NCBI RefSeq assembly: GCF_002159945.1
Contig: NZ_NFJQ01000008.1
Span: 1-64,000, forward strand
Source of the DNA: Cloacibacillus sp. An23
GTDB taxonomy: Bacteria; Synergistota; Synergistia; Synergistales; Synergistaceae
Length of the DNA stretch: 64,000 nucleotides
Reading direction: 5' to 3'
Shown: one piece after another, positions 415-62,078 of the stretch
How the letters are laid out: each line of letters opens with the position of its first letter
Position numbering within the stretch: position 1 is the stretch's first letter
Made by a program: the position numbers and the translations under genes
Notes under the pieces: model-generated
What the model was told of the DNA's origin: nothing
Database searches by the model: none
Seen by the model: the letters and a program-made list of their open reading frames with translations, nothing else

Positions 415-443
415 ATATTGGCGAAGGGAAATATTTTTGTGCT

Positions 444-1577: not shown

Positions 1578-1651
1578 CGAATCTTATTTTATATAGGTTT
1601 ATCTATGAAGTGGTTAATCGATTTCGTAAAATGGTTGGAGGAAAAATTATT

Positions 1652-2386: not shown

Positions 2387-2399
2387 AAGGATATTCTCA

Positions 2400-3116: not shown

Positions 3117-3132
3117 AGAGGGATAGAGCGCA

Positions 3133-4182: not shown

Positions 4183-4265
4183 CTTCAAGATATCGGCTTT
4201 ACCACATAAACATCAAGTAATAATAGGTAATGTTTTTTTGTGTGCGTTTTTATATTGGGAGAAAA

Positions 4266-6149: not shown

Positions 6150-6185
6150 AAATATACCCAAAGCAATTGCCGTTATAATGTAAAA

Positions 6186-9755: not shown

Positions 9756-10136
9756 ATGAGGGAAATTCTGGGATCTTATTTTAAATGGAAAATCGCCGTA
9801 TTCTTATTGATGTTTGCGATAGTCACCGTCGTTACGGCAGTCAATTTCTTCTATGGAGAGCGCAGCGCTCTGACCGTATTTCCGGCAGCATCCGAGACTA
9901 TAGATGTAAAATATCTACAGGTTTTTGAAGTGGTGGAGCCCGACATGGCTCTTGCCCGGGCGGGAAACGAACGCGACATCGTGTTTGACCGCGACGCGAT
10001 AGACGTGCTCCTTGTGGGCGAAGGGGCCAACTATTACGATAAGCAGAGAATCGACGTCCCCGATGGCAAAAAAGTTCGGCGTGTGGGGACGTACAAAAAA
10101 TACGGGAAAACCCTTCCGGCGGTTCGTATAGAATAG
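9756..10136 (+). CDS. Small membrane-anchored protein of unknown function
   Basis: A 126-residue protein with one N-terminal membrane segment (about residues 10-32, KIAVFLLMFAIVTVVTAV) and a soluble domain of about 90 residues, probably periplasmic. I do not recognise the family. ATG 9756 is chosen because GGGGAGAG precedes it and codon use becomes backbone-like there; an upstream in-frame TTG at 9528 would add 76 residues of dubious sequence. It lies 31 bases before the helicase gene and may be cotranscribed with it. Confidence 0.6.
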   Translation: MREILGSYFKWKIAVFLLMFAIVTVVTAVNFFYGERSALTVFPAASETIDVKYLQVFEVVEPDMALARAGNERDIVFDRDAIDVLLVGEGANYYDKQRIDVPDGKKVRRVGTYKKYGKTLPAVRIE

Positions 10137-27342: not shown

Positions 27343-27414
27343 ATGATGCAGAACCAACGGGAAAATATGTCTAACTATTGACGGTAAAAACCTACACCAA
27401 AGGAGTCAGACAGC

Positions 27415-28116
27415 ATGAAAGCGAATCCGAAGTATTTGTCATTTTATTATCAGGATATTGACGAATTGCCTGCGATAAAAATTGAGCCTGCTAAAACGGC
27501 TTTGCTTATAGTCGATATGCAAAAGCATTTTTTATCTAAAGACGGATATGATGCGGAGCTTTTTAAAAAAATGGGTGAATGGGATCGCTGGAAACATTAT
27601 TTTGATTATGTTGAGAATGTTACGATTCCTAATAATAAACGGCTCATTGAATGTTGCCGCAAAAACAGCATTGAAGTTACATACGGTAGGATAGCGTCTC
27701 TAAAAGCTAACGGAGCAGACAGGGCAAGAGTGCAGAGTACTATTGGGTGGAATAATATTTTAGTTCCGATTGATTCTGAGGGAGCCGCTATGATGGATGA
27801 ATTAGCTCCTGAAAAAGATGATATCGTAGTCAATAAAACAACTGACAGCGTCAGCCTTGGAACAAATTATTCTGAACTTATGCGAAATATGGGAATTGAC
27901 ACGATTATTGTTACTGGGGTCGTCACAGATCAGTGTGTGGCCGGAACCGTGAGAGTGCTTGCCGACCATAATTTTAAGGTAATTTGCGTTGAAGATTGCT
28001 GCGCCGCTCCAGATATGGAATTACACCACATGGAATTGAAGATTATGAACATCATTTATTGTAATGTGCTGTCTACTGACGAAACAATCGCTTTAATCGA
28101 AGGAAGAGCTAAATAA
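27415..28116 (+). CDS. Isochorismatase-family cysteine hydrolase
   Basis: A 233-residue hydrolase. The catalytic triad of the family is visible: Asp in LIVDMQKHF, Lys in VVNKTTDS, and Cys in TDQCVAGTVR. Relatives hydrolyse amides such as nicotinamide, N-carbamoylsarcosine, ureidoacrylate or biuret. The substrate here is not evident. Codon use is AT-rich, unlike the upstream gene, and the gene is followed after 31 bases by an amino-acid permease of the same composition. ATG 27415 follows AAAGGAG. Probably a transferred pair handling a nitrogenous substrate. Confidence 0.87.
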   Translation: MKANPKYLSFYYQDIDELPAIKIEPAKTALLIVDMQKHFLSKDGYDAELFKKMGEWDRWKHYFDYVENVTIPNNKRLIECCRKNSIEVTYGRIASLKANGADRARVQSTIGWNNILVPIDSEGAAMMDELAPEKDDIVVNKTTDSVSLGTNYSELMRNMGIDTIIVTGVVTDQCVAGTVRVLADHNFKVICVEDCCAAPDMELHHMELKIMNIIYCNVLSTDETIALIEGRAK

Positions 28117-28147
28117 TCTTAAACTGCACTAAGGGAGGGCATGGCCT

Positions 28148-29497
28148 ATGTCAAGCGCATTAAAAAAAGAGTTGACTCTCTCTCAAATTATAGCAATGGC
28201 CGCGGGCGGAATGATAGCTGCGTGGATGGTTGAAATACGGTATTGGTTTGAACTTACTGGGCCAAGCTCTTTGCTATGCCTTCTTGCCTGCGGTATTATA
28301 TTGTTGCCGTTGTGCTTGATATATACAGAAATGACGGCCATGCTCCCTTATGCTGGCGGTGAAAATATATGGGCTAGCAATGCATTTAATTGGGATTTTG
28401 GGTGGCTGGTCGGGTGGTGCATGTTTTTGCTCTACTTGTCCGCAATGCCGAACGTAACAATCGGCATCTCCACAATGGTATCTTATCTATACCCGTTGAA
28501 CTTTATAGAATTAAAAATCCTCGCCTGTGTGATATTATCCGTATGGTTTGTAATGGTCAATCTAGAAATAAAACATTTAGCAAAGGTTCAGGACATTATG
28601 TTCTGGGGGACTCTGGTTGTCTCACTTGTTACTTCTATGATTTTTGTATTTAGCGACGAGTGGAGATGGAGCAACATATCGCCTTGGTTTCCCAAAGGTG
28701 CGGCCGGATTCAGCGCTGGTCTAGGACTTTTAATGTTTAAGTTTATTGGCTTCGATTTGATTGCAGTATTAGTCGAAGAATCCAATTTTTCTAAGAAGAA
28801 AATAATCATAGGCTTTATCGGCAGTATATTATGCACGTTCCTTGTCTATGGACTTGCTATACTTGGAGTAGCCGGGATAGTTTCGCAGGAATGGATTGCA
28901 CAGACAGATATTGTTGACCCACGTGTAGCTGACATATTGGGCATGCATTGGCTGGCGTTGGTAATAGTCATTATGGGGGCAATTACGTGCATAACAACTC
29001 TGTCTGGGTTCTGGCTTGCTGCATCTAGGACTATGTTTGGAGCAGCTTTACAGAGACAGGTGCCCAAGAAGTTAGCTCTTCTTAATCGCTATGGACAGCC
29101 ATGGGTGGCCAATACATTGGTCTATATTTGTTCGTTATATTTCTGCATCATGGCACCTGAAGCGTGGATAAACTATATATTTACAATAACAGTCGGCGCT
29201 GCCGGTATAATATACCTATTTGTTTCACTGTCATTCCTTAAACTGCGCAGGATGAAGCCACATTGGGAACGCCCGTATCGTTGCCCTTACGGGTTATTTA
29301 TGGGACTAGAATCTATTTTGTTCTGTATATACTGTTTGTACCAGTGTGTTAAGGCTATGGATGCTGCAACATGGATAGCGCTTGGTGTGTATTTTGTAAT
29401 TGGCGGTATGTTGTATGCATATGCAAAGTATAAACAAAGTACGTCTCCAGAAGAATGGAAACCTTTGATCCAGTCTCCTGACAACGTTACACTGTAA
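28148..29497 (+). CDS. APC-superfamily amino acid permease
   Basis: A 449-residue membrane protein with about 12 helices. The first helix carries the broken-helix glycine pattern (IIAMAAGGMIAAW) typical of APC transporters, and the segment YTEMTAMLPYAGGENIW matches the family's conserved TM2 region. It would import an amino acid or amine across the inner membrane, by symport or exchange. With the isochorismatase-like hydrolase it forms an AT-rich two-gene unit. The substrate cannot be read from the sequence. Confidence 0.87.
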   Translation: MSSALKKELTLSQIIAMAAGGMIAAWMVEIRYWFELTGPSSLLCLLACGIILLPLCLIYTEMTAMLPYAGGENIWASNAFNWDFGWLVGWCMFLLYLSAMPNVTIGISTMVSYLYPLNFIELKILACVILSVWFVMVNLEIKHLAKVQDIMFWGTLVVSLVTSMIFVFSDEWRWSNISPWFPKGAAGFSAGLGLLMFKFIGFDLIAVLVEESNFSKKKIIIGFIGSILCTFLVYGLAILGVAGIVSQEWIAQTDIVDPRVADILGMHWLALVIVIMGAITCITTLSGFWLAASRTMFGAALQRQVPKKLALLNRYGQPWVANTLVYICSLYFCIMAPEAWINYIFTITVGAAGIIYLFVSLSFLKLRRMKPHWERPYRCPYGLFMGLESILFCIYCLYQCVKAMDAATWIALGVYFVIGGMLYAYAKYKQSTSPEEWKPLIQSPDNVTL

Positions 29498-29533
29498 TGG
29501 CTGTTGCATTTTTTGCATAAGCTGGCTGTTTCT

Positions 29534-29615
29534 ATGGATAAATATGCGAATATTCACATTTATCCATAACTATCTAAATATTAAGCGTATTTTTATGGAG
29601 AATAATATGCTTAAT
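29534..29615. repeat. Two inverted repeats between the permease and SDR genes
   Basis: ATGGATAAAT (29534-29543) pairs with ATTTATCCAT (29558-29567), a perfect ten-base arm with an internal GAATATTC dyad. ATTAAGC (29580-29586) pairs with GCTTAAT (29609-29615), extended by AT pairs. No clear T-run follows the first, so these may be operator sites or weak terminators between the AT-rich and GC-rich blocks. Confidence 0.45.
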
Positions 29616-29674
29616 ACTTGACTGATACTGGTTGCAAATATATTATTTTTTTAATTCTTAAGGAGATGATTTGC

Positions 29675-30427
29675 ATGGCTCATTACGACGAATTAAAAGG
29701 CAAAAGGGTGCTCATAACCGGGGCCGCCAGCGGCATCGGGCTGGCTACGGCGCAGGTGTTCGCCGCGCAGGGTTCGAAGGTCTTCGTAGTAGACTACAAC
29801 AAAAGCGCGGTCGAGAAGGTCATGGCGGAGAATCCCGCCTTCTCGGGGTACAGCCTCTGCGACGTCAGCAAAGAAGAAGACGTGAAGGCGGCCTTTGAAA
29901 AGATGGACGCGGAGCTCGGCGGCATCGACGTGCTCATATCCAACGCGGGCATCAGCATCCGCTCCGACTTCACCGACATCACCTACGAGCAGTGGAAGAA
30001 GGTCATCGACATCAACCTCAACGGCATGTTCCTCTGCGCCAAGGAGGCCGCGAAGCGCATGCTCGCGCAGAAGAGCGGCGTGATACTCATGACCGCATCG
30101 ACGAACGGCACCGAGGGACACCGCTGGTACACCGACTACAACGCATCGAAGGCCGGCGTCATCCTTCTCACGAAGAGCATGGCGCTTGAGCTCGCGCCGG
30201 TCGTGCGCGTCAACTGCGTCTGCCCGGGCTATGTGCTCACACCGATGCAGCGCGCCGAGTACACCGACGAGATGCTCGCGAAGGTCAACGAGGGCATCCC
30301 GATGAAGCGCCACGCAGAGCCCGAGGAGATCGGAAAGCTTTACGCCTTCCTCGCCTCCGACGACGCGGCCTACATCACTGGAGCCGACATCAGGATAGAC
30401 GGCGGAGAAACCGCGGGGCTTTACTAA
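29675..30427 (+). CDS. Short-chain dehydrogenase/reductase
   Basis: A 250-residue classical SDR with TGAASGIG near the N-terminus, SNAGIS, the catalytic Ser in MTASTNG and the YNASK active-site pair; the C-terminus ITGADIRIDGGET is typical. NAD(P)-dependent and cytoplasmic. ATG 29675 follows AAGGAGATG; the sequence upstream is AT-rich while the gene is GC-rich, so it belongs to the backbone. It begins a run with a YtcJ-like amidohydrolase and Na+/H+ antiporters. Substrate unknown. Confidence 0.87.
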   Translation: MAHYDELKGKRVLITGAASGIGLATAQVFAAQGSKVFVVDYNKSAVEKVMAENPAFSGYSLCDVSKEEDVKAAFEKMDAELGGIDVLISNAGISIRSDFTDITYEQWKKVIDINLNGMFLCAKEAAKRMLAQKSGVILMTASTNGTEGHRWYTDYNASKAGVILLTKSMALELAPVVRVNCVCPGYVLTPMQRAEYTDEMLAKVNEGIPMKRHAEPEEIGKLYAFLASDDAAYITGADIRIDGGETAGLY

Positions 30428-50259: not shown

Positions 50260-51120
50260 TTAAGAACGTATGCGTTGCCTAAAATATCTTTTTAAGAATT
50301 CAAAAAATACCATGACTTCTTGTTTCTTAATACCATCGTCAGGCCAACTTATGAATATATTTCTTCTACAAATCGGATTAGTGATATTTAATAAATTAGC
50401 TTTATCTGATTGTATTTTCCCCCAAGTGATTTCTGGCCACAACGTTATGCCTAACCCGGCGCTTACCAGCTCTCTGATTGTATATGGGCTATCGCTCTCA
50501 AAAGCAATATTTGGAGAGTATCCACAAAGATTAAAAAAATGCATCGTGATGTCTCGCAATATGTGATTTTTTAGCATTACAAAGCTTTCATATCGCAAAT
50601 CTGCAAGATCGACGGCATTAGTTAATGCTAATGGTGATGACGCTGGGACTGCCAGCTTCAAATCCTCACTCATTACTAACGCGCTGTTGTTTAACATAAC
50701 ATTAGGTAATGTTGAGGATATACATAAATCATATTTTGCATTTTTATTCTGCAATAGTTGGAAATTTATCAATGGATACTCTTTCTTAAACTTAAGCAAA
50801 ATATCTGGAAGTAAAGAAGTCGCAGCAAGAACATTGAAAATAATCGTGGATTGACGTTTACCAGCTGCAATGCTCAATTCATTCGGTAAATTATTGAGCG
50901 TTGCAAGAACGCTCTTTAGACGTTCTTGCAACGCCTTTCCTGCGTTGTTTAGCTTTATGCGTTTGCCGTTGCGATCAAATAACTGCACTCCTAATTCTTG
51001 TTCCAATTGTATTATGGCTTTACTGACAGAAGGTTGAGAAACTAGCAGTTCGTCAGCTGCTTTGGAAAAATTTTCATATTTAGCGACTGTTAAAAAGTAG
51101 CGCAGTTGGAATAATTCCAT
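50260..51120 (-). CDS. LysR-family transcriptional regulator
   Basis: A 286-residue LysR-type regulator. The N-terminal helix-turn-helix (MELFQLRYFLTVAKYENFSKAADEL, then SQPSVSKAI) is complete, followed by a periplasmic-binding-protein-like effector domain. The start (complement of ATG at 51118-51120) is preceded by GAGGAGAACC; an upstream in-frame start at 51150 is less likely. It is divergent from the malonate decarboxylase operon and is the obvious candidate for its activator, with malonate or a relative as effector. The effector is inference. Confidence 0.9.
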   Translation of the reverse strand: MELFQLRYFLTVAKYENFSKAADELLVSQPSVSKAIIQLEQELGVQLFDRNGKRIKLNNAGKALQERLKSVLATLNNLPNELSIAAGKRQSTIIFNVLAATSLLPDILLKFKKEYPLINFQLLQNKNAKYDLCISSTLPNVMLNNSALVMSEDLKLAVPASSPLALTNAVDLADLRYESFVMLKNHILRDITMHFFNLCGYSPNIAFESDSPYTIRELVSAGLGITLWPEITWGKIQSDKANLLNITNPICRRNIFISWPDDGIKKQEVMVFFEFLKRYFRQRIRS

Positions 51121-51181
51121 CGGTATAGGTTCTCCTCTAATAACTTTCATCTATAAAACATATTCTTATTATATATTGGAC

Positions 51182-51218
51182 AATATTAACAAACAAGGAT
51201 AAATTTATTGTTAACATT
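51182..51218. promoter_or_regulatory. Candidate LysR operator between regulator and malonate operon
   Basis: AATATTAACAA (51182-51192) and TTGTTAACATT (51208-51218) form an inverted repeat with one mismatch, and a TTAACAA/TTGTTAA core is perfect. It is in the 172-base divergent region. A second dyad, CCTAATTAGG, lies near 51225-51234. Confidence 0.45.
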
Positions 51219-51292
51219 ATGGCGCCTAATTAGGTAAGAGATATCTACAATCTGCAGGTTGATTGATCTAAACTTAAAAGGAGGAAATTATA

Positions 51293-52480
51293 ATGAATTT
51301 AAAAGGTATGAGTTTCTTTGATAATCATACGCATCTTATCGATCCTACTTTGACATCTCTGACTAAAAAAAGTTTCATAATGCGCTTTATCCATGGCTAC
51401 CAGGATATGGAACCTTGGGATAAGGGCGTTGAGTCGGATTATACCTATGGACATGCCTCTGATTGGCAGGTAAGCAACATAGAAAATCTAGGTGTAGTGA
51501 AGCTGATTAGTCATTATCTTGCCGAGCGTTTTGATTGCGAAGAAACACCAGACGCTGTGATAGCCGCAAGGAATACATATATAGACGGCAGCGTTGAAAA
51601 ACTGAAAGAATACACAAAGAGTCTTTATAACGAAGAAGGCATTATCGGTACAGTCCTTGACAGCCACGATCCGTGGGGCGATATAAAAGACAAAGCTTTT
51701 CCGTGCCCTGTATACCGCCTATACAATTTTGAAGATGATTATTTTGAACTGCTTCCTACAGCAAGTTCTTTCAAAGCTCTGATGGAAAATGTCGAACAGA
51801 GGATTCGTAAGGCTATTTCTGATGGTTTCACGGCGCTAAAAGGGCACGTGGCAGAGAATTACACAATGGAAGTACGTGTGATTTCTGACAGTGAAGCTGA
51901 GAAGAAATTTGCTGCGGCACAAAAAGGCGAGGATAAAACGGCAGTGGAGGACGTTTTCTTTGCGATGTACAGACATGTCCTTCTGATTGCATCAGAGCTA
52001 AATGTCACAGTGCATATCCATGCCGGAACGACTGGTTTTAACCGTCCAAGCGCAGCATATGTGCCGCATCTTGATCCATTTCTTTTTGTTCCCTTTTATA
52101 CATCCGATCTCGCTTTGACTAAGACTAAAATTGTATTCCTGCACCAGGGATTCCCATATACACGTCATGCTGGGATGATGGCGTATTCGTTCCCGAATAT
52201 TTTTGTCGATACCAGCTGGGTTCTGCCATGGAACTCATATGCGTTCCGCACTAATATAGAGGATCTGCTCGGCGTGTGTCCGCATAAGAAAATCCTGTTT
52301 GGTACAGGACAGCATGGATTCCCCGAAATTGCATGGACAGCTGCAAAGGTGTCAAAAGCCTGGCTCGGCGAAATACTTGACGACTACATACGGCTTGGGC
52401 TTATGTCCGCAAACCAGGCTGAAAAAACGGCAAGGCAGCTTCTCTTTGAAAACGGTAAAGAGTTGTACCATATTCAATAA
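51293..52480 (+). CDS. Amidohydrolase-superfamily protein (Amidohydro_2-like)
   Basis: A 395-residue TIM-barrel metal hydrolase. The N-terminal metal motif is DNHTHLID (HxH), with HIHAG, FLHQGFPYTRH and the final acidic-containing strand FGTGQHGFPEIA. It resembles the amidohydrolase half of FluG and lactonase/decarboxylase-type Amidohydro_2 proteins. The substrate is unknown; lying first in a malonate operon, it could release malonate from an amide or ester, but that is speculation. ATG 51293 follows AAGGAGG. A terminator-like hairpin separates it from the transporter. Confidence 0.82.
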   Translation: MNLKGMSFFDNHTHLIDPTLTSLTKKSFIMRFIHGYQDMEPWDKGVESDYTYGHASDWQVSNIENLGVVKLISHYLAERFDCEETPDAVIAARNTYIDGSVEKLKEYTKSLYNEEGIIGTVLDSHDPWGDIKDKAFPCPVYRLYNFEDDYFELLPTASSFKALMENVEQRIRKAISDGFTALKGHVAENYTMEVRVISDSEAEKKFAAAQKGEDKTAVEDVFFAMYRHVLLIASELNVTVHIHAGTTGFNRPSAAYVPHLDPFLFVPFYTSDLALTKTKIVFLHQGFPYTRHAGMMAYSFPNIFVDTSWVLPWNSYAFRTNIEDLLGVCPHKKILFGTGQHGFPEIAWTAAKVSKAWLGEILDDYIRLGLMSANQAEKTARQLLFENGKELYHIQ

Positions 52481-52489
52481 GCATCATAT

Positions 52490-52531
52490 CTGAGGGCTGT
52501 ATTTTTCAGCCCTCAGCCTTTTCTCTTTTTT
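52490..52531 (+). terminator. Terminator-like hairpin between amidohydrolase and transporter genes
   Basis: CTGAGGGCTG (52490-52499) pairs perfectly with CAGCCCTCAG (52507-52516), followed by a T-rich tract to 52531. It could end a short transcript or act as a partial terminator that lowers downstream expression. Confidence 0.78.
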
Positions 52532-52566
52532 CCCCATTAAAATTTTGATATAAGGAGGGCTATTAG

Positions 52567-53958
52567 GTGATTACAGTTATAGTCCCAATATGCTTGCTGG
52601 TATTCTTGCTATTATGTAAAAAAGTACCTCTTGTTGGCGGAAAGATTTGGCCGTCATTGGGGGTGGCTTCTATTTGCGCTCTAGTTATGGGTGGAATTTA
52701 CAATCCTATTAAGTGGATAAGCGCATGGTTATACGGTATAGATACAATTGCATGGGTGCTCTTTCTTACGGTATTCGGAAGTATATATGCTCAAACTCAA
52801 ATTCAGCTGGGAACGATGGACACCGTCTTCAGCTGCTTTAAAGCTAAGTTTGGCGAACGCCCTCGTATATTGGTTTGCTGCATACTACTGACTCTGGTTA
52901 TTGCTGGCGCATTGCTGGGCGGAGGCACAGCATCTATCGCTATAGTCGGCGTACTTATGATACCTTCATTGGTCCAGCTGGGGCTTGATCCTACTAAGGT
53001 ATGTGCTACGTTGGTCATGGGCGGTGCGATTGGATCTCTAATGCCGCCTGTGAGTCAAGCGATATTTCTGTCTTCGTCGCTTATCCATACAGAGGTAGAC
53101 CTGGCGAACCAGTATTGCTATTTCACGGTGGGCAGTGCATTTATTGTCGAATGTATTTACGTTTCATTTTGCTTTATAGACAAGAATGCAAAAATCGTCG
53201 ACTATGATGAAAATGGAAATATTATTCCTCCGAGAAAAGTAAAAGATATTTTAATAGAGAGATGGTGGACGTTAATTCCGTTCTTATTCCTGCTGGTACT
53301 GGTGATACTGAGAACGGTTAAAATAATAGATATTGTGCCGCTTGTTTTTAATCAGATCTCTATTGGTGGAGTGCCGTTTATGACCGCTATCAGTAAGATC
53401 TTTTTTATCAAAGGATTCACTAATGTGACAAATTTGATACTTGTTCTTTCAACACTTGTGGCATATATATTCCCTATCGTTAGAAAGACGAAGTTCGAAT
53501 GTATAGTCGTTGGTGTTAAGAACTCCGTTTCAATGATGATAGTACTTTTCTTCTCTGCGCTTATGGTTGGAGCGTTTACGTATGGCGGGCAGATAGAGAT
53601 TGTAAAGGATTTCGCTATGGGCCTTGATCTCCACGTACTCAAATTCGGCGGTATGGCCGCGATGGTAATTATGGGTATGCTTACAGGTACGCAGTCTACT
53701 CCTAATAATGCGATATTCTCGTTCTTTGGGCCTGCGTTGCTACAGGCCGGCATTCTTCCTGGCAAAGCCGCTGCTGCTGGAGCGCAGTTTGCAGCCGCAG
53801 GACAAGGAATGCCGCCTGCAGATACATGTACTTTCTTTACGGCTGGACTGGTTGGCAGTGTACTGAATGCTGAAGTTAATCCCGTAAGATCTATGTTGCT
53901 TGCGACTCCTGTTTGGCTTTGGGTTGTCTTTACAGGTATGATTTTACTGTACGTGTAA
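52567..53958 (+). CDS. DctM/MatC-like membrane transporter (ion transporter superfamily)
   Basis: A 463-residue protein with about 12 helices. GGGTASIAIVGVLMIPSL and the related GTQSTPNNAIFSFFGPALL segment form the two repeated re-entrant motifs expected in the ion-transporter superfamily, which includes TRAP DctM subunits and MatC dicarboxylate carriers. No DctP binding protein or DctQ subunit accompanies it, so it probably works alone. The most likely cargo is malonate, given the operon. It starts at GTG 52567 after AGGAGGG. Confidence 0.75.
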   Translation: MITVIVPICLLVFLLLCKKVPLVGGKIWPSLGVASICALVMGGIYNPIKWISAWLYGIDTIAWVLFLTVFGSIYAQTQIQLGTMDTVFSCFKAKFGERPRILVCCILLTLVIAGALLGGGTASIAIVGVLMIPSLVQLGLDPTKVCATLVMGGAIGSLMPPVSQAIFLSSSLIHTEVDLANQYCYFTVGSAFIVECIYVSFCFIDKNAKIVDYDENGNIIPPRKVKDILIERWWTLIPFLFLLVLVILRTVKIIDIVPLVFNQISIGGVPFMTAISKIFFIKGFTNVTNLILVLSTLVAYIFPIVRKTKFECIVVGVKNSVSMMIVLFFSALMVGAFTYGGQIEIVKDFAMGLDLHVLKFGGMAAMVIMGMLTGTQSTPNNAIFSFFGPALLQAGILPGKAAAAGAQFAAAGQGMPPADTCTFFTAGLVGSVLNAEVNPVRSMLLATPVWLWVVFTGMILLYV

Positions 53959-54057
53959 TATGTAGCGTGTGGGGTCGGCGCGCGGCTTTTACTCATATCA
54001 TAAATGAGTTTAGCTGCGTGCCGCCGTTTACGGTGTCTTTATAGAGAGGAACAAAAT

Positions 54058-54192
54058 ATGAATATTATTCTGTATGCCACTTTTGCGTACGCCTTAACAG
54101 CGATTATATCAGTTGTAATGATTTCGGTTGTTGTGTTGTTAATAAAAATATTAATGAAGTTTCAATCTGCTGAGCAGACAGAAGGTGAGTAA
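54058..54192 (+). CDS. 44-residue single-pass membrane protein, possible Na+ pump gamma-like subunit
   Basis: A short protein with one membrane helix (about residues 5-32, ALTAIISVVMISVVVLLIKIL) and a charged tail (QSAEQTEGE). ATG 54058 has GAGAGGAAC upstream and its stop lies two bases before madB. Na+-pumping decarboxylases have a small membrane gamma subunit (OadG/MmdD) that anchors the soluble complex to the beta pump; this gene has the right place and topology, but it is much shorter and no family motif is visible. Confidence 0.6.
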   Translation: MNIILYATFAYALTAIISVVMISVVVLLIKILMKFQSAEQTEGE

Positions 54193-54194
54193 AG

Positions 54195-55409
54195 ATGATT
54201 AAAAGTGAAATTGTTTTAAACTTATTTCCTGGAATAGCCAGCTTTGCCTTTCAAGATTTAAACATAGCTGTTGCTCGTATAGTACTGATAGTTATGGGCT
54301 TTTTATTGGCTTATTATGGTTACAAAAGAAAACTTGAGCCGTTGATTATGGTTCCTATGGGAGTCGGACTTATTTGTATTAACGCCGGAGTATTGTTTCT
54401 AAAGGACGGCTCACTAGGCACATTGTTTGTTGCACCGCTTGTTGAAGATCCTTCTGCGCTTATTAACATCATGCAGGTTAATTTCCTTCAGCCGATTTAT
54501 AATTTTATGTTCAGCAACAGTCTCATAGCATGTTTAGTGTTTATGGGAATAGGCGCTATGAGTGAAATAAGTTTTATTATAATGAATCCATTTACAAGTA
54601 TTTTTATAGCTCTTTGCGCAGAGCTCGGTACGTTTGTTGCTCTTGTAATAGGCGTCTATTTAGGACTCACGCCTCAAGAAGCGGCCTCGGTGGCGATAAT
54701 AGGAGGAGCCGACGGGCCAATGGTGCTGTTTGGTTCATTGATGATGGCGCCTAAGCTCTTTGTGCCTATCTCTATAATTGCGTATCTCTATTTAAGCCTT
54801 ACTTATGCGGCTTATCCGTATCTTGTAAAAAAATTAGTTCCTACAAAATATAGGGGGATAGACTATATAGAAGAAATCCCGGAGATACAGCCAAAAACAA
54901 TTTTTATATTTTGTCTGGCAGCATGCGCGTTGTTATGCCTTTTGCTTCCGGTAGCAGCGCCTCTCATAATGTCCTTTTTTCTGGGATTAATTATCAAGGA
55001 GGCTAAAATAGAGCCTTATCTGGAACTTTTGGAAAATACGATTCTTTATCTTTCAACGTTGCTGTTGGGGCTTATGCTTGGAACGTTATGTGAAGCGTCT
55101 GTGCTTCTTGACCCTAAAGTCATTAAACTGCTGATAATAGGTGTCGCCGCCCTTTTATTCTCTGGGCTTGGAGGTATAGCCGGAGGCTGGATCATGTATG
55201 TAGTTAAAAAGAAAAACTTTAATCCTCTTATAGGTATTGCGGGAGTCTCATGTGTGCCAACTACAGCAAAAATAGCGCAGCATGTAGCTGAAGAAGAAAA
55301 TCCGTTTGCCGTCATCCTTCCCATTGCGATGGGGGCGAATATAGCCGGAGTCATTGTCTCTGCTATTGCAACTGGCATATATGTCTCAACTATAGGTCTT
55401 GTCCAGTAA
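54195..55409 (+). CDS. madB: Na+-translocating decarboxylase beta subunit (malonate type)
   Basis: A 404-residue membrane protein with about ten helices. IIGGADGPMVLFGSLMMAPKL carries the GGADGP motif with the ion-binding Asp of OadB/MmdB/GcdB/MadB proteins, and GVSCVPTTAKIAQHVAEEENP near the C-terminus is typical. It decarboxylates the carboxybiotin of MadF and uses the energy to export Na+. All surrounding genes are malonate decarboxylase genes, so I name it madB. It follows the 44-residue gene by two bases and overlaps the biotin ligase gene by one. Confidence 0.9.
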   Translation: MIKSEIVLNLFPGIASFAFQDLNIAVARIVLIVMGFLLAYYGYKRKLEPLIMVPMGVGLICINAGVLFLKDGSLGTLFVAPLVEDPSALINIMQVNFLQPIYNFMFSNSLIACLVFMGIGAMSEISFIIMNPFTSIFIALCAELGTFVALVIGVYLGLTPQEAASVAIIGGADGPMVLFGSLMMAPKLFVPISIIAYLYLSLTYAAYPYLVKKLVPTKYRGIDYIEEIPEIQPKTIFIFCLAACALLCLLLPVAAPLIMSFFLGLIIKEAKIEPYLELLENTILYLSTLLLGLMLGTLCEASVLLDPKVIKLLIIGVAALLFSGLGGIAGGWIMYVVKKKNFNPLIGIAGVSCVPTTAKIAQHVAEEENPFAVILPIAMGANIAGVIVSAIATGIYVSTIGLVQ

Positions 55410-56197
55410 TGCGTTTTAATCCTTTAGCTATAAAGTATGAAAAATATATAGATGAATATGAAGAAAGAGACGTTTTACACTTTCGCCGCGTAAGCTCTAC
55501 AAATATTGTCGCTAAAAATTTAGCGATAAATGGGAGCAAAGTTGCTGTTATTGCAGATTCGCAGTTTATGGGACGTGGAAGAATGTCTCGTCTTTGGGAA
55601 TCTGAAGTAGGTGGTTTGTATTTAACTCTGACTCAGAAAATAGATTTACAGGATCGCATAATTCCTATGATTAGTATGGCGGCCTCTATAGCGGCATTGC
55701 GATGTATATCCGATATCAGTGGCTTAGCGTGCAGAATTAAATGGCCGAATGATGTTTTGGTAAATAATAAAAAAATATGCGGGGTTCTATCAGAAGCTAT
55801 ATGGGGAGCTGATAAATTAGATTTTGTGCTTGTCGGATTCGGCTTAAACATTAATCAGAGTTTTGATTCGTTCTCGTCCGGCATAAAAAAACTTGCTACT
55901 TCTATTTATCTTGAAACAGAGAAAAGATTTCCAATCAAAGAAGTAGCGTTTTCATTGATACATAATATGAACCGAGAGATTAATGAAATATCCGTATATG
56001 GACCGTCTTGTATGGTCGGTAGATATCGGCGATATTGTGAAACGCTAGGAAAGAGAATATCTGTATTTGACGGCGATGATGAGATTTTTGAAGGTGAAGC
56101 GATAGCAATTAACGAAGACGGCGCTCTGGTTGTTAAAGATTCTGCCGGTAAGATAGAAACGTTTCTCTATGGAGAAGTAAGTAATAGGATGATATGA
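55409..56197 (+). CDS. Biotin-protein ligase, stand-alone
   Basis: A 262-residue BirA-type ligase. The biotinyl-AMP loop is GRGRMSR and the conserved KWPNDV lies near the middle; GFGLNINQS and the C-terminal SH3-like domain follow. There is no N-terminal helix-turn-helix, so it is not a repressor. It couples biotin to a carrier lysine. It lies inside the malonate operon (TAATG overlap with madB), so MadF is its evident target. It is probably a dedicated ligase beside a housekeeping one elsewhere. Confidence 0.88.
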   Translation: MRFNPLAIKYEKYIDEYEERDVLHFRRVSSTNIVAKNLAINGSKVAVIADSQFMGRGRMSRLWESEVGGLYLTLTQKIDLQDRIIPMISMAASIAALRCISDISGLACRIKWPNDVLVNNKKICGVLSEAIWGADKLDFVLVGFGLNINQSFDSFSSGIKKLATSIYLETEKRFPIKEVAFSLIHNMNREINEISVYGPSCMVGRYRRYCETLGKRISVFDGDDEIFEGEAIAINEDGALVVKDSAGKIETFLYGEVSNRMI

Positions 56198-56217
56198 GTT
56201 GAAAGGGTGTGTCAGTT

Positions 56218-57897
56218 ATGATCAGTGGCAGTCTTTCAGGTGTATGGGATAATATCAAACGAGATACAGCACGGCGTTTAAGTGCCGCATCTGCGTTAGT
56301 AACGGGACAAGGCTCAAAGATAGTATTATCAGATAATACAGTAAAATTGCTGGAAAGTGTGATTAAACCTTACGATATTGTAAACTTGGAAGGGAACAAC
56401 CAGAAACAAGCTGATTTTTTAGCTAGATGTCTTTGTAAAGTTGATCCATCGGTTGTACATGACCTCCATATGGTGCAATCAGTTATTGCATTGCCTGAAC
56501 ATATTGAAGTTTTTGAACGCGGCATTGCGCAAAAACTTGATTTTTCATTTTCAGGCCCACAAGCTGGAAAAGTCGCCGAGTTGATAAATAGCGGTAATAT
56601 TGAACTTGGAGCGATACATACATATCTTGAACTTTATGGACGGTATTTCGTCGACTTGACCCCTAGAGTGGCTTTGGTTGCAGCGGTGCAAGCCGATAGG
56701 GACGGTAATTTATATACCGGTTTTAGTACGGAGGATACCCCTGTTATTGTTGAAGCGACAAAATTTAAACAAGGGATAGTCATAGCACAGGTCAATCAAA
56801 TCGTAGACAAGTTGCCGAGGATTGATATTCCTGGGGATTGGGTTGATTTTATTGTACAGTCTCCGGAACCTTTTTATATAGAACCGCTCTTTACCAGAAA
56901 TCCGGCACTGATCACAGAAGCGCAAATATTGAGAGGAATGATGGCAATAAAAGGCATTTATGCGGAATATGCCGTTAAGACTCTTAACCATGGCATAGGC
57001 TTTGATACGGCTGCAATTGAGCTGTTACTGCCGACATATGCCGAATCTTTAGGGCTAAAGGGGAAAATTTGTACACATTTTGTATTGAATCCGCATCCGA
57101 CCTTAATCCCGGCCATCGAAACAGGATGGGTTCAGTCGGTCCATTGTTTTGGCGGAGAACTTGGTATGGAGGATTACGTTGCTGCCAGGTCAGATATATT
57201 CTTTAATGGTCCGGATGGTTCAATGCGTTCGAATCGAGCTTTTTCGCAAGTTGCCGGACATTATGCAACTGATATGTTTATCGGCGGGACTTTGCAAATA
57301 GATAAATGGGGCAACAGCAGCACTGCAACGGCAAAACGCGTGTCCGGATTTGGCGGGGCTCCTAATATGGGATGCGACCCCAAAGGTCGGCGGCATGCAA
57401 GTGAAGCATGGATGCAATGCGGCGCCGAGGATGTTGGTATTAGCAAAAATATTGGGCCGCTGCACAGAGGAAAAAAACTTGTCGTCCAGTTGGCCGAAAC
57501 ATTCAGAGAGAAGATGGCTTCTTGTTTTGTAAATGAACTGGACGCCGTTGCTCTATCACAAAATGCGCACCTTACGATTGAACCAATAATGATTTATGGG
57601 GACGATCTTACGCATATTGTTACAGAAGAAGGTATCGCGTACCTACATAAGTGCCACGATATAGAAGAACGCATGGCTGCTATCCGAGGCGTTGCGGGTT
57701 TTACGGATATCGGTTTGTCTGCCGATCCGGATGAAACTGCGAAGTTAAGGGAGCTTGGAGTTATAAAAACCCCCGAGGATTTGGGGATTAATATAACGCA
57801 GGCGAATAAGTCTATGCTTGCGGCCCAAAGTATCAGGGAGCTTGTTAAATGGTCTCACGGCTTGTATCAGCCGCCGAAGCAGTTTAGGACATGGTAG
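56218..57897 (+). CDS. madA: Malonate decarboxylase acetyl-S-ACP:malonate ACP transferase
   Basis: A 559-residue CoA-transferase-like alpha subunit (MadA/MdcA). It exchanges acetate for malonate on the ACP. EGNNQKQADFLARCL, HDLHMVQSV, the LGAIHTYLELYGRYFVDLTPRVA segment and HCFGGELGMEDYVAARSD are typical of this family. ATG 56218 is preferred because GAAAGGG ends ten bases upstream; GTG 56209 would be too close. It lies early in the catalytic part of the operon. Confidence 0.9.
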   Translation: MISGSLSGVWDNIKRDTARRLSAASALVTGQGSKIVLSDNTVKLLESVIKPYDIVNLEGNNQKQADFLARCLCKVDPSVVHDLHMVQSVIALPEHIEVFERGIAQKLDFSFSGPQAGKVAELINSGNIELGAIHTYLELYGRYFVDLTPRVALVAAVQADRDGNLYTGFSTEDTPVIVEATKFKQGIVIAQVNQIVDKLPRIDIPGDWVDFIVQSPEPFYIEPLFTRNPALITEAQILRGMMAIKGIYAEYAVKTLNHGIGFDTAAIELLLPTYAESLGLKGKICTHFVLNPHPTLIPAIETGWVQSVHCFGGELGMEDYVAARSDIFFNGPDGSMRSNRAFSQVAGHYATDMFIGGTLQIDKWGNSSTATAKRVSGFGGAPNMGCDPKGRRHASEAWMQCGAEDVGISKNIGPLHRGKKLVVQLAETFREKMASCFVNELDAVALSQNAHLTIEPIMIYGDDLTHIVTEEGIAYLHKCHDIEERMAAIRGVAGFTDIGLSADPDETAKLRELGVIKTPEDLGINITQANKSMLAAQSIRELVKWSHGLYQPPKQFRTW

Positions 57898-57915
57898 TTT
57901 AGGAGGATATTATTT

Positions 57916-58242
57916 ATGGCGCTGCAGACTTTGTATTACGAATTTAAAGTGGCTGACCCGAAAAGCATTCCTGCAGAGTGGGGCCATTATGGTGTAACTG
58001 GCTCCGGTGACCTTGAAGTATTGTTTGAACGACAGAATTTAAATGGAAGTGTTAAAGTAAAAGTAGTTACACCAGTAAAAGGATTTGAAAAAGTGTGGGA
58101 AAAGGTTTTGGAAAGATTTGTGAAAGAATTTAGCCTTGGAGATTTGTCTATAGAAATTAACGACGATAACGCTACGCCTGTAGTTGTTTATATGCGTTTA
58201 AGACAAGGGCTGGTAGAGACAGGCTTCCTCAAAGGAGAGTAA
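57916..58242 (+). CDS. madE: Malonate decarboxylase acyl carrier protein
   Basis: A 108-residue ACP of the MadE/MdcC family, unrelated in sequence to fatty-acid ACPs. The prosthetic group 2'-(5''-phosphoribosyl)-3'-dephospho-CoA is attached to the serine of GVTGSGDLEV (Ser30). ATG 57916 follows TAGGAGGA. Its neighbour madA loads it and madC-madD decarboxylate it. Confidence 0.9.
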   Translation: MALQTLYYEFKVADPKSIPAEWGHYGVTGSGDLEVLFERQNLNGSVKVKVVTPVKGFEKVWEKVLERFVKEFSLGDLSIEINDDNATPVVVYMRLRQGLVETGFLKGE

Positions 58243-58247
58243 TTTAT

Positions 58248-59195
58248 ATGCGCGATTGGAATAAAATCAGTGCTAGGAAATTTTCTGAAATTCATGCCAG
58301 GGAACGTGCGATAGGCCTTGTTGACAAAGATACTTTTACAGAGTTCTTAGGACCAAGAAAAAAATTTTCAAGTCCACACTTACCTTTGCTCGGCGTCGCC
58401 GTAGAATTTGATGACGGCCTTGTCTCTGGAATGGGGCTTATTGATAAACATCCTGTTTTTGTTAATTCGATGGAGGGGAAATTTATCGGAGGTTCTATAG
58501 GAGAAGTAGGCGGAGCAAAGCTCGTAATGTCACTCAGATTAGCCTTGGAAACATATAATATGATTCCAGAAGAAGAGCTTGAAAGCCGCCGCCCTCTTGT
58601 GGTTATTTCATTTGAAACCGGTGGAGTGAGGCTTCATGAGGCTAACGCTGGGTTGTTGGCTCATGCGGAAGTTATAGATGCTATTCAGGATTTAAGACAT
58701 AAAGTTCCTGTTATTGCTGTAATTGGAAGCAAAGTAGGGTGTTTTGGCGGAATGGGGTTTGTAGCGGCAGCTACAGATGTAGTTGTGATGAGTGATGTCG
58801 GTCGTTTAGGTTTGACTGGTCCAGAAGTTATAGAGCAGGAAGTAGGAAAAGAAGAATTTGACGCTTCCGATAAATCTCTTGTATATCGTACTACAGGCGG
58901 AAAACATAAATATATCGTTAGGGACTGCAACTACTTAGTTCCAGATAAAACGGCCGCTTTCAGAGACATTATCAATCAGCTTTCGCGTTGCTCAATGGAA
59001 GATATAGAGAAAATGCGTAGAATAGGTTCGATGTATCTGGTAAATAAGCAGCTTGCTTTTATAAATGAAGTTTTAGAAAGAGATATACGTGATTCTAGAG
59101 ATCTTTGGAGAGCTTATGGCAATTCTGATATTGACGCGTTGATAGATTCTGATGTAGAGGAATTTCTTACATTGGTACAGCGCAGACCTTTGTAA
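58248..59195 (+). CDS. madC: Malonate decarboxylase carboxyltransferase beta subunit
   Basis: A 315-residue crotonase-fold carboxyltransferase subunit (MadC/MdcD family). SGMGLIDKHPVFVNSMEGKF and VISFETGGVRLHEANAG match the family. With MadD it moves the carboxyl group from malonyl-ACP to biotin on MadF. ATG 58248 follows AAGGAGAG. It is followed by madD after 15 bases, as in other malonate decarboxylase operons. Confidence 0.9.
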   Translation: MRDWNKISARKFSEIHARERAIGLVDKDTFTEFLGPRKKFSSPHLPLLGVAVEFDDGLVSGMGLIDKHPVFVNSMEGKFIGGSIGEVGGAKLVMSLRLALETYNMIPEEELESRRPLVVISFETGGVRLHEANAGLLAHAEVIDAIQDLRHKVPVIAVIGSKVGCFGGMGFVAAATDVVVMSDVGRLGLTGPEVIEQEVGKEEFDASDKSLVYRTTGGKHKYIVRDCNYLVPDKTAAFRDIINQLSRCSMEDIEKMRRIGSMYLVNKQLAFINEVLERDIRDSRDLWRAYGNSDIDALIDSDVEEFLTLVQRRPL

Positions 59196-59210
59196 TTGGG
59201 AGGAAAAGCA

Positions 59211-60101
59211 ATGGAAGACTCTAACATCACTATGATTGGCCAGGTCCGCGAAGTTTTGAATATGCTGATTGATAAAGATACTTTTGTGGAAAATAGCGTA
59301 TGCGGTCATAACTTTGCTGCGGATTTTGGATGTGGCGCTATAGTAGGGACAGGAGAAATTAACGGGAACGTTTCAACAATAATCGCCAACGATACAGACG
59401 CTTATAATGAGAAGTTCCCTGTCGTTTTTGCTGGTATCATTGGTTTGGAAGAAGCGTACAAAATGGCTCAAGCTGTATATATAACAATGGAAGCTGATCG
59501 TACAAAAGATATAGGACAGAAAAGGCCGATTGTATTAATCGTTGATACGCCGGGTAATGCCCCAGGCAAGATAGAAGAAATTATCGGAATGAATAAAGCG
59601 ACGGGAGCATATCAGCTTGCCCTTGCAGAGGCTCGCGGAATGGGACATCCTATAATTGCAGTTGTCATTGGGCGGGCCATAAGTGGAGCTTTTCTATGCC
59701 ATGGATTACAGGCTGATCATATTCTTGCATTGTCTAAGGACTTCGGCACAATAATTCACGTAATGCCATTGACCAGTATCGCAAGGATAACAAAAATGGA
59801 CATAGAAGAGTTGGAAAAAATGTCAGTAGATAATCCAGTGTTTGCGTCAGGCGTAGATTTCTTCTACAAATTAGGCGGAATAGACGAGATTATCTACACA
59901 CTAACCGACATGAAGCGATGCGTTGCTGATCATATAGAGAAGATTCGCATTCTAAAAGCAGAACACAAATTACAAGAATTAGGTCCTAAGGGGCGGGGTT
60001 TGTCTGGTCTTAAGCGGAACGGACGTAATTCTCGTGCGAAAGCGATGGATGAAATGAAGAAAGAGTATTCGTGCGTCATCCGTCATTATTTAAGCGTTTA
60101 A
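59211..60101 (+). CDS. madD: Malonate decarboxylase carboxyltransferase gamma subunit
   Basis: A 296-residue partner subunit (MadD/MdcE family) with the carboxyltransferase fold. VPLTSIARIT-like and IGRAISGAFLCHGLQAD segments and the VDTPGNAPGKIEEI stretch are typical. ATG 59211 is chosen because GGGAGGA precedes it; a TTG at 59196 is upstream in frame. The C-terminus is basic and somewhat long. Forms a heterodimer with MadC. Confidence 0.88.
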   Translation: MEDSNITMIGQVREVLNMLIDKDTFVENSVCGHNFAADFGCGAIVGTGEINGNVSTIIANDTDAYNEKFPVVFAGIIGLEEAYKMAQAVYITMEADRTKDIGQKRPIVLIVDTPGNAPGKIEEIIGMNKATGAYQLALAEARGMGHPIIAVVIGRAISGAFLCHGLQADHILALSKDFGTIIHVMPLTSIARITKMDIEELEKMSVDNPVFASGVDFFYKLGGIDEIIYTLTDMKRCVADHIEKIRILKAEHKLQELGPKGRGLSGLKRNGRNSRAKAMDEMKKEYSCVIRHYLSV

Positions 60102-60114
60102 ATTTGTTTAAGTA

Positions 60115-61173
60115 ATGGAACAGTTTGAACTTTTTGACAATAGCCCTACTATTGAAGAGCTGCCGCATCAACCCTTATCAGCAAGAGGATTATGCGGCCC
60201 TACAGTAGCCCATAAAATCGAAGAGCTGCATACACCTTGTAACATCGCTTTTACAACATTTTCAACTGGCAGCAGCGCATTGCAGAATGTAATAGGCGTA
60301 ACCTACCAGGAACTTAATGCGCGAATCGAAGCGTCTATAAACGCTTTAGATATCATAGGGCTGCGTGAAGGGGATAATTTACTTGTAACATATCCTCCGT
60401 TAGTCAACGTTTTTCCTGTTGAAGCTCTTCAGCGCAGAGGCATCCACTTGCTCTATCTCAATCGCTCGAGTCGTATGTCTTTGATTGAATCCATGTTAAA
60501 TGTACAGCCGTCTGCGATACTGGGAGAAGGTGCGTTCATATACGCATCGATGCGAGACGCAGAAAAGCTCGGTTTCCCCAATTTATTTAATCGAACAACG
60601 CGAATAATAACGGCTGGCACTCCTTTGAATCTGGATATGCATGAAGCGGCGCAAGAGAGGCGGATGGAAGTCCATGATTTGTATGGATGTCAGGAGTTCG
60701 GCTGGATAGCATGCGATGGAATTCCATTAAGGAACGATTTATCGTTCATGCCTGCTGAAAAAGAGTGGCATGAAGTTATTGTCGGAGGGCTTCCGACTGG
60801 TGACTGCTTGATTCTGTCTAATTCGGGACATATGTGTAATCGCAAGGGACGGCTAATAACTTATAGGCTTAAACGCAGCGTTAACGACATTGATATAGTT
60901 ATTCGCGCGTCTAAATTTAAATCTGAAGAAACGGTCAGGCGCATTGCTAAAAGTATTTTAAGGCTAAAGGGGAAACACGTGTATGTAAGCCCATCTGTCA
61001 GGCTGGGTGCTGATTGCACGGTACTGGAATTAAAGGGCTCACAGTATAATAAAAATACTATACCGAGTTTTTGTATTGACAATGCGATAAAAACAGAGCT
61101 TTTCGATTCTTTGGCAGAGGCTCAGTGCCTATATCAGAATGACCATAGGCATAATGAGGTCTGGAGTAAGTAA
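60115..61173 (+). CDS. madH: PaaK-like adenylate-forming enzyme, probable acetate:SH-ACP ligase
   Basis: A 352-residue protein that resembles a shortened, diverged adenylate-forming (phenylacetate-CoA ligase-like) enzyme. FSTGSSALQNVIGVTYQEL stands where the usual Ser/Thr/Gly-rich AMP-binding loop is, and DLYGCQEFGWIACDG resembles the YG-x-(S/T)E motif. In Malonomonas rubra the MadH ligase re-acetylates deacetylated ACP; position between madD and madG makes that the best guess. The symbol reflects this role, not a sequence proof. The start has only a weak ribosome site. It follows madD by 13 bases and abuts madG. Confidence 0.58.
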   Translation: MEQFELFDNSPTIEELPHQPLSARGLCGPTVAHKIEELHTPCNIAFTTFSTGSSALQNVIGVTYQELNARIEASINALDIIGLREGDNLLVTYPPLVNVFPVEALQRRGIHLLYLNRSSRMSLIESMLNVQPSAILGEGAFIYASMRDAEKLGFPNLFNRTTRIITAGTPLNLDMHEAAQERRMEVHDLYGCQEFGWIACDGIPLRNDLSFMPAEKEWHEVIVGGLPTGDCLILSNSGHMCNRKGRLITYRLKRSVNDIDIVIRASKFKSEETVRRIAKSILRLKGKHVYVSPSVRLGADCTVLELKGSQYNKNTIPSFCIDNAIKTELFDSLAEAQCLYQNDHRHNEVWSK

Positions 61174-61905
61174 ATGAAATTATATAAACGGCACGATATG
61201 CTGGACATCTCTTTTGAAGGGAGGGCTAGGATATTTTTTGATTTGATGGCGAAGGCGGAAAGCATTTCTATGGATGTCTTAAAAGCGACTATACTCGCAA
61301 GATATCATAACGGATATGTGCCAGGCATCGTAAGACGCGGGGATATAAGTGCTTATGGTGAAGTAAATGTCGGTTTTGTATATCCATGGAGAGTGTCCGA
61401 TAGTCGTTTACGTATAGCGAATATTGTATATCCCAATGAGATTCTCGGTGTGATTTCTCCTTATATTTTGCCGTATTGTGAATATCAGGTAGAAAGTCGC
61501 TGTATGGCAGCGCTAAAGGATGTGTCGCTTTTATTAGAAGCTCAAAAGGGGCACATTGGTGTTATTGGCTCTGCTGCGCTGGAAATCGTCACGGGATATT
61601 GCTATACAGACGGCAATTCAGATTTGGATCTTATTATACAGGGACAGACTTTGTGTGACCTTACAGAAACGTATACTGTTTTGGCGCAAATAGGTCAGAA
61701 ACATAGGGTAAAAATTGATGCTGAAGTCCAGTTAAGAAATGGATATGGAATCAAAGCGGATGAGCTGTTTATTGGAAGCCAGACATTATTAGGCAAAAGC
61801 TTATGTGACGTTCGGCTGTTCAATAGAGAAAACATTATAGAAACTCTAAATTCACAGGAGGAATTTACATGGAAATTAAGTCAAGAGTCCCAGGAAAAGT
61901 CGTAA
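61174..61905 (+). CDS. madG: Malonate decarboxylase holo-ACP synthase (phosphoribosyl-dephospho-CoA transferase)
   Basis: A 243-residue nucleotidyltransferase-fold enzyme of the MdcG/MadG family. The catalytic pattern IGSAALEIVTGYCYTDGNSDLDLI carries the Gly-Ser and Asp-x-Asp residues of this fold. It attaches the triphosphoribosyl-dephospho-CoA-derived group to Ser30 of the ACP. ATG 61174 directly follows the previous stop. The partner enzyme that makes the precursor (MdcB/CitG type) is not in the window. It overlaps madF by 37 bases. Confidence 0.86.
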   Translation: MKLYKRHDMLDISFEGRARIFFDLMAKAESISMDVLKATILARYHNGYVPGIVRRGDISAYGEVNVGFVYPWRVSDSRLRIANIVYPNEILGVISPYILPYCEYQVESRCMAALKDVSLLLEAQKGHIGVIGSAALEIVTGYCYTDGNSDLDLIIQGQTLCDLTETYTVLAQIGQKHRVKIDAEVQLRNGYGIKADELFIGSQTLLGKSLCDVRLFNRENIIETLNSQEEFTWKLSQESQEKS

Positions 61906-62078
61906 GGTACGAAAAACAGGTTGGGGATACCGTAAAGGTGAAAGATGTAATAGTTGTTATGGAGGCTATGAAAATGAAACAATTAGTCCCTTCACCGATT
62001 GATGGCGTGTTGAAAGAAATTAAGGTCAATCCCGGAGAACGTGTGTCTGCCGGAAAAGTATTAGCAATCGTTGAATAA
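61869..62078 (+). CDS. madF: Biotin carrier protein of malonate decarboxylase
   Basis: A 69-residue minimal biotinyl domain. The biotinylated lysine is K35 in VMEAMKMKQ. It shuttles CO2 from the MadC/MadD carboxyltransferase to the MadB pump. Unlike biotin subunits of oxaloacetate decarboxylase it is a free small protein. ATG 61869 follows CAGGAGGA and lies within the end of madG. It is the last gene of the operon, followed by a terminator. Confidence 0.92.
   Translation: MEIKSRVPGKVVRYEKQVGDTVKVKDVIVVMEAMKMKQLVPSPIDGVLKEIKVNPGERVSAGKVLAIVE

Follow-up and report, generated by a model that had tools for sequence, protein, structure and literature searches.

In the 64,000-nucleotide stretch of Cloacibacillus sp. 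An23 DNA analysed here (the window: positions 1 to 64,000 of contig NZ_NFJQ01000008.1, contig C8 of a 2.9-Mb genome in 31 contigs), an island at positions 50260-62078 consists of 12 closely packed, collinear genes on the + strand, which form an operon, and a LysR gene that diverges from it. The core of the operon encodes MadB, a carboxybiotin decarboxylase and Na+ pump (54195-55409; 629 bits for TIGR03136, above the cut-off of 597), MadA, an acetyl-ACP:malonate ACP transferase (ACP, acyl carrier protein; 56209-57897; TIGR01110, 940 against 789), MadE, the ACP with the serine S30 in the motif GSGDLEV (57916-58242; TIGR03130, 106 against 84), and the carboxyltransferase subunits MadC (58248-59195; TIGR03133, 338 against 278) and MadD (59196-60101; TIGR03134, 274 against 237). 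These five were called by NCBIfam equivalog cut-offs, and the other domains by Pfam. They are followed by a MadH-like AMP-forming ligase (60115-61173), an MdcG homologue (phosphoribosyl-dephospho-CoA transferase; holo-ACP synthase; 61174-61905; PF10620 over its cut-off) and MadF, a biotin carrier protein of 69 residues with K35 in the motif EAMKM (61869-62078; PF00364, Biotin_lipoyl). The start of madF overlaps the gene of the MdcG homologue by 37 bases. Between madB and madA lies a biotin-protein ligase gene (55409-56197; TIGR00121, 153 bits against 83; BPL_LplA_LipB and BPL_C domains). I read the island as encoding a complete Na+-pumping, biotin- and ACP-dependent malonate decarboxylase of the Malonomonas rubra type, with a probability of about 0.9 judged from the sequence. 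This apparently recent acquisition should allow its host, a gut-type anaerobe, to live on malonate by exporting Na+.

A preliminary description of this DNA, made from its letters, had proposed such an operon from the co-occurrence of MadA, MadE, MadC, MadD, MadF, the MdcG homologue and MadB. These genes are indeed together and collinear on the + strand, and the equivalog matches, the clade of MadB and its Na+ ligands support the proposal. The inventory was short of the MadH-like gene and the divergent LysR gene, and the operon has no MdcB gene. The label MadG that was used for the MdcG homologue presumably departs from the published M. rubra naming. The gene order is common to loci of Synergistes, Pelosinus, Flavonifractor, Adlercreutzia, R. 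capsulatus and Klebsiella. In the related operon of a relative (genome G034, locus L017), most proteins are 47-86% identical to those of the window and the biotin ligase is 41% identical; MadF is 86% identical. In a literature search, no link between Synergistes and malonate decarboxylase was found.

The sequence supports the assignment of MadB to the Na+ pumps of malonate decarboxylase type. The preliminary description had suggested a phylogeny of MadB. In a tree of 25 rows covering MadB and related beta subunits, the malonate type is separated with full support (100/100) from the type of oxaloacetate decarboxylase (OAD) and MmdB. The MadB of the window falls in the malonate-type clade, apart from the OAD and methylmalonyl-CoA pumps, and the other three beta subunits of the same genome fall in the OAD/MmdB-type clade. 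The grouping with oxaloacetate or methylmalonyl-CoA pumps that would have spoken against the proposal is therefore absent for MadB. In the alignment with 6iva, D173 and S352 of MadB align with Asp203 and Ser382 of StOAD; replacement of these StOAD residues abolished Na+ binding, as a passage of PMC7274780 reports. Shortly after the Na+-ligand serine, the malonate clade has a lysine where the other clade has an arginine (VPTTAK versus VPMAAR in most rows).

The ligase encoded at 60115-61173 is probably a deacetyl-ACP:acetate ligase of MadH type (acetate:ACP-SH ligase). An AMP-binding domain was matched by 8 of 10 homologues, and the protein carries an invariant HDLYGCQEFGW. The closest folds to its predicted structure are PaaK-type adenylate-forming ligases; since the global TM-scores are low (0.47-0.49), only the fold class is claimed. 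In the mad cluster of R. capsulatus, the gene in the MadH position is annotated as an AMP-binding protein. MdcB has no gene in the operon, and one CitG/MdcB homologue is encoded in trans (C4:76163-76972). The phylum is rich in CitG homologues, so the operon, on its arrival, may have drawn on this resident gene for the prosthetic-group precursor. The biotin ligase, which had been listed among unusual accessories, is present, but it is a recurrent neighbour of madB, lying between madB and madA in Pelosinus and R. capsulatus as well. A second, chromosomal biotin ligase gene was found in the genome (G000:C11:44433-45152). As a side observation, an energy-coupling factor (ECF) transporter with BioY follows madLM in R. 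capsulatus (L112:18121-21200); biotin uptake seems to be tied to the mad cluster there.

The reactions can be proposed by analogy with M. rubra and with the Klebsiella and Pseudomonas systems. In the biotin-independent enzymes, MdcA converts acetyl-ACP and malonate into malonyl-ACP, which MdcD/E then decarboxylate (PMC5534430). In M. rubra, according to a passage of PMC7274780, the carboxyl group reaches biotin via an ACP stage, and the decarboxylation of carboxybiotin by MadB is accompanied by Na+ movement. In Cloacibacillus, malonate would be imported by a DctM-like carrier, and the thiol of MadE would be charged once with acetate by MadH. MadA would then exchange the acetate for malonate, and the carboxyl group of malonyl-MadE would be passed by MadC/MadD to the biotin on MadF, which regenerates acetyl-MadE. 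The carboxy-MadF would be decarboxylated by MadB with export of Na+. The operon's biotin ligase would biotinylate MadF, and the MdcG homologue would load the prosthetic group of MadE, the precursor coming from the CitG/MdcB homologue encoded elsewhere. A 44-residue membrane protein would bind MadB as a gamma-like helper helix, and expression may be under LysR control.

This 44-residue protein is encoded directly upstream of madB (54058-54192, + strand) and has a single predicted membrane span. The preliminary description had noted it as a tiny accessory. Its presence stands, but it belongs to the core, as it is found in every related locus that was read. I surveyed 12 related MadB loci from three phyla, the window, and two annotated Pseudomonadota records. 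An open reading frame (ORF) of 38-46 codons precedes madB in all of them and adjoins or overlaps madB in most; it spans four phyla (Synergistota, Bacillota, Actinomycetota, and Pseudomonadota). In the loci listed, a purine-rich stretch resembling a ribosome-binding site lies ahead of its start, also in the window. Six positions are invariant among 13 sequences (M1, Y6, Y11, T14, I17, and V26). The small ORF is unlisted in the gene tables of both Pseudomonadota records, of which the plasmid table is known to be incomplete. The protein consists of a membrane span and a charged, often basic tail; thus, the tail is predicted to lie inside, a topology like that of the OAD gamma subunit.

In a passage of PMC7274780, OAD gamma is described as one helix (residues 2-43) on the beta subunit with a cytoplasmic tail, and the methylmalonyl-CoA and glutaconyl-CoA decarboxylases (MCD and GCD) are said to have a delta subunit homologous to it; the same passage names no gamma- or delta-like subunit for the malonate pump. 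The OAD-type pumps of Synergistaceae use PF04277 (OAD_gamma) instead, for example at L071 in the genome of the window. The 44-residue protein is probably a gamma-like MadB subunit that lacks the carboxyltransferase-binding tail, and the likeness extends at most to position and topology. A short contig (4.7 kb) of Clostridiales Family XIII holds a hybrid decarboxylase pump, in which an MmdA-type carboxyltransferase, a small membrane protein, MadB, and MadF are encoded together (L026:1120-4346). Its MadB scores 617 bits, over the malonate cut-off, and no MadA, MadE, MadC, or MadD is found on the contig. Since the small protein stays with MadB there, it seems to follow MadB rather than the malonate chemistry. 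On balance, I favour the view that a single-span membrane component of 38-46 residues, encoded directly before madB and belonging to MadB, has gone unrecognised in malonate-type Na+ pumps generally. If this is true, a family of primary Na+ pumps has an overlooked subunit, and MadB, the small protein, and MadF would form an exchangeable pump module. The conservation of the small protein beside MadB is what a specialist would not expect.

The composition and distribution of the island clearly point to horizontal acquisition, since its G+C content at third codon positions (GC3) differs from that of the flanks and it is absent from a congener. The GC3 is 0.29-0.42 in the island (about 0.37; 0.33 for the LysR gene) and 0.74-0.81 in the immediate flanks (about 0.78). 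The earlier suggestion of an AT-rich, acquired block is thus borne out by the GC3 contrast and the synteny. In the congener G001, which has no mad operon, a LysR gene and an M20-peptidase operon lie between the same neighbours. G009 and G015 have nothing at the corresponding site. In G034, the mad operon adjoins, in the opposite orientation, the gene orthologous to the 194-aa gene of the window, and its composition is like that of its host (GC3 about 0.59). The site looks variable, as if it had received mad genes separately in two lineages. Energy conservation from malonate would be mobile cargo in Synergistaceae. Scanning the window for tRNAs and Rfam families revealed no tRNA target or riboswitch, and no long flanking repeats were found at the island borders. 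A plasmid search found MadB in only two records and the carrier in none, and a phage search gave no matches.

Across Synergistaceae, the gap that separates the 194-aa gene, itself adjacent to a ClC channel gene, from a GNAT gene is unoccupied in some genomes and filled with varied AT-rich cargo in others; G027, for instance, has other AT-rich genes there (L068:10135-14301). This gap is likely an insertion hotspot. Elsewhere in the window, positions 1-10000 and 27000-30000 have a G+C content of 33-45% against 60% otherwise, and they are possibly other acquired islands.

Several points weigh against the assignment as a complete malonate decarboxylase with a gamma-like subunit. The MdcG homologue misses the TIGR03135 cut-off by 0.2 bit (99.5 versus 99.7). 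The CitG/MdcB homologue is under both equivalog cut-offs (218 versus 282 and 214 versus 272), and such homologues occur in 155 of the 188 Synergistota genomes, so the gene may serve another enzyme; a CitG gene specific to the mad operon was rejected on the same count. The substrate of the carrier is guessed from gene position, and the 44-residue protein shows no sequence relation to OAD gamma, with no PF04277 match among 12 members at E values up to 10. Could the MadB/MadF module serve another acyl substrate, such as methylmalonyl-CoA, with the mad genes mis-assigned by homology? The hybrid locus of Clostridiales Family XIII, where a malonate-type MadB accompanies an MmdA-type carboxyltransferase, indicates that MadB by itself is no proof of malonate. 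However, the malonate-specific ACP and transferase parts (MadA, MadE, MadC, and MadD) all exceed their equivalog cut-offs in the window and no MmdA-type gene was found in the operon, which makes this alternative very improbable. Still slightly less probable is a biotin-independent enzyme (Mdc type) lying merely beside an unrelated pump subunit. NCBIfam does label the MadC and MadD matches as biotin-independent, since it describes both systems with one model. Yet one operon contains both a biotin carrier and a malonate-type MadB, in an order that is shared across phyla, and the window adds a biotin ligase. Moreover, no ORF of the operon matched MdcH, the malonyl-CoA:ACP transacylase, in profile searches, and a MadH-like ligase is seen instead.

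The remaining two alternatives concern the small ORF and the origin of the island. As the main competitor of the subunit proposal, the small ORF might be a mere leader peptide or translational coupler, as would suit its shortness and its frequent ending at or overlap with the start of madB. However, its amino acids are conserved through the membrane span, and in Adlercreutzia it stops 70-72 bases ahead of madB. Differences are most frequent at third codon positions (789, 530, and 1225 at the first, second, and third positions), and the ratio of nonsynonymous to synonymous substitution (dN/dS) is 0 for L018/L020 and 0.23 for L021/L025, two close pairs outside Synergistaceae. These are signs of purifying selection, and I regard the leader or coupler as unlikely. 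As for the island, the operon might be ancestral in Synergistaceae and look foreign through compositional drift, because G034 has a related operon beside the orthologue of the same 194-aa gene. Against this stand the sharp GC3 step at the flanks, the reversed orientation in G034, the missing operon at the same site in G001, G009, and G015, and the rarity of MadB, which exceeds the cut-off in 2 of the 61 genomes searched. Ancestry is therefore improbable, and horizontal acquisition is preferred.

The genuinely unusual parts of the operon lie at its 5′ end, where a DctM-like carrier takes the place of MadLM and a uronate-isomerase-like amidohydrolase is added. The carrier gene (52567-53958, + strand) is 79% identical to its positional counterpart in L017, and its product was assigned to a small family of DctM/NhaC-like membrane carriers by its homologue matches and position. 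Its own DctM match is weak (19.8 bits against a cut-off of 23.8); DctM was matched by 6 of 6 homologues and Na_H_antiporter by 2 of 6. The preliminary description had called it a DctM/MatC-like transporter replacing MadLM. The DctM half and the unusual character hold, but assignment as MatC was rejected because neither the carrier nor its homologues matched MatC. MadL and MadM, which form an associated malonate transporter and no part of the enzyme itself, are not in the operon, and their family PF03818 was unmatched in the genome by a search that matched no control genome either. MadLM is present in Pelosinus, R. capsulatus, and Klebsiella, and apparently in Adlercreutzia. The carrier probably imports malonate, replacing MadLM in that role.

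The first gene of the operon (51293-52480, + strand) encodes an Amidohydro_2 family protein (PF04909). It had been pointed out as an unusual addition, and it is absent from the mad clusters of pRCB133 and CP125156. It is related to PDB entry 2qpx (phmmer E 1e-9), and its predicted structure (pLDDT 82) has 2qpx as the best Foldseek match, followed by uronate isomerases. A simple amidase was rejected on this fold. The protein has a conserved GTGQH at the place of FASDAS in 2qpx, as do all eight relatives. Among 188 Synergistota genomes, full-length relatives are confined to the 8 with an over-cut-off MadA, and all of these have one; six of the eight belong to one genus, and thus three of 63 genera are represented. 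TctA-type carriers adjoin the amidohydrolase gene in the genus with six genomes, as they do on a second G034 contig. The enzyme may supply the pathway with malonate or a precursor, and its co-occurrence with full-score MadA is a lead to the malonate source. In a genus designated g55 (L063:6191-17922, L101, L102, L108, and L110), a full-score MadA gene adjoins genes for a DctM carrier, a gamma-glutamyltranspeptidase, and DUF6305, with TctA/TctC and the amidohydrolase nearby. No MadB, MadC, MadD, MadE, or MadF was seen in the stretches read, and the g55 MadA may serve as a malonate CoA-transferase.

The divergent LysR-type regulator (50260-51150, - strand; PF00126 and PF03466) has a 71% identical orthologue adjoining the mad operon of G034. 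In other phyla (Bacillota, Actinomycetota, and Pseudomonadota), genes of the HutP family, the histidine-utilisation antiterminator, were found in or beside mad clusters (L018:8978-9673, L019:12097-12585, L025:4149-4694 by sequence likeness only, L112:7988-8404, and L113:18533-18964). None was found within the operon of the window.

The island is probably a functional member of a known system, as far as its genes tell, with a changed uptake gene and an added amidohydrolase. Counterparts of MadA, MadE, MadC, MadD, MadF, and MadB of the M. rubra mad cluster are all in the window, with a MadH-like ligase and the MdcG homologue. The M. rubra order is reportedly madYZGBAECDHKFLMN, with which the core order B-A-E-C-D-H-K-F of the window agrees. 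Unlike M. rubra, the window has a DctM-like carrier instead of MadLM, a biotin ligase between MadB and MadA, an added amidohydrolase and LysR, and no MdcB in the operon. The clusters of R. capsulatus plasmid pRCB133 and Klebsiella pneumoniae CP125156 share the order madB-(biotin ligase in R. capsulatus)-mdcA-mdcC-beta-gamma-AMP-binding-mdcG-biotin carrier and the small ORF before madB. They differ in that MdcB or CitG immediately precedes them, MadLM follows, and HutP is present; neither the amidohydrolase nor the DctM-like carrier occurs in them.

The biotin-independent Mdc of Klebsiella and Pseudomonas has homologues of MadA, MadE, MadC, MadD, and MdcG, but it has no biotin carrier and no membrane pump, and its activation is by MdcH instead of MadH (PMC5534430). 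The oxaloacetate, methylmalonyl-CoA, and glutaconyl-CoA decarboxylase pumps have a beta subunit homologous to MadB, in which Na+ is liganded by Asp and Ser, and a small single-span membrane partner. In contrast, their carboxyltransferase acts on the free acid or CoA ester without ACP, and their partner belongs to PF04277, which the 44-residue protein does not match. A stretch of another Synergistaceae genome (L059:198-14594 in G005:C141) encodes a PreA-like dihydropyrimidine dehydrogenase, a three-subunit molybdenum hydroxylase, an Amidohydro_3 enzyme, and a MadA-like transferase, together with MmdA, OAD_gamma, a biotin carrier, an OAD-type beta subunit, and an amidase. This set suggests that pyrimidines are oxidatively degraded to malonate and that a CoA-type Na+ pump is coupled to the process, and the lack of a CitG match in the G005 genome fits such an ACP-free route.

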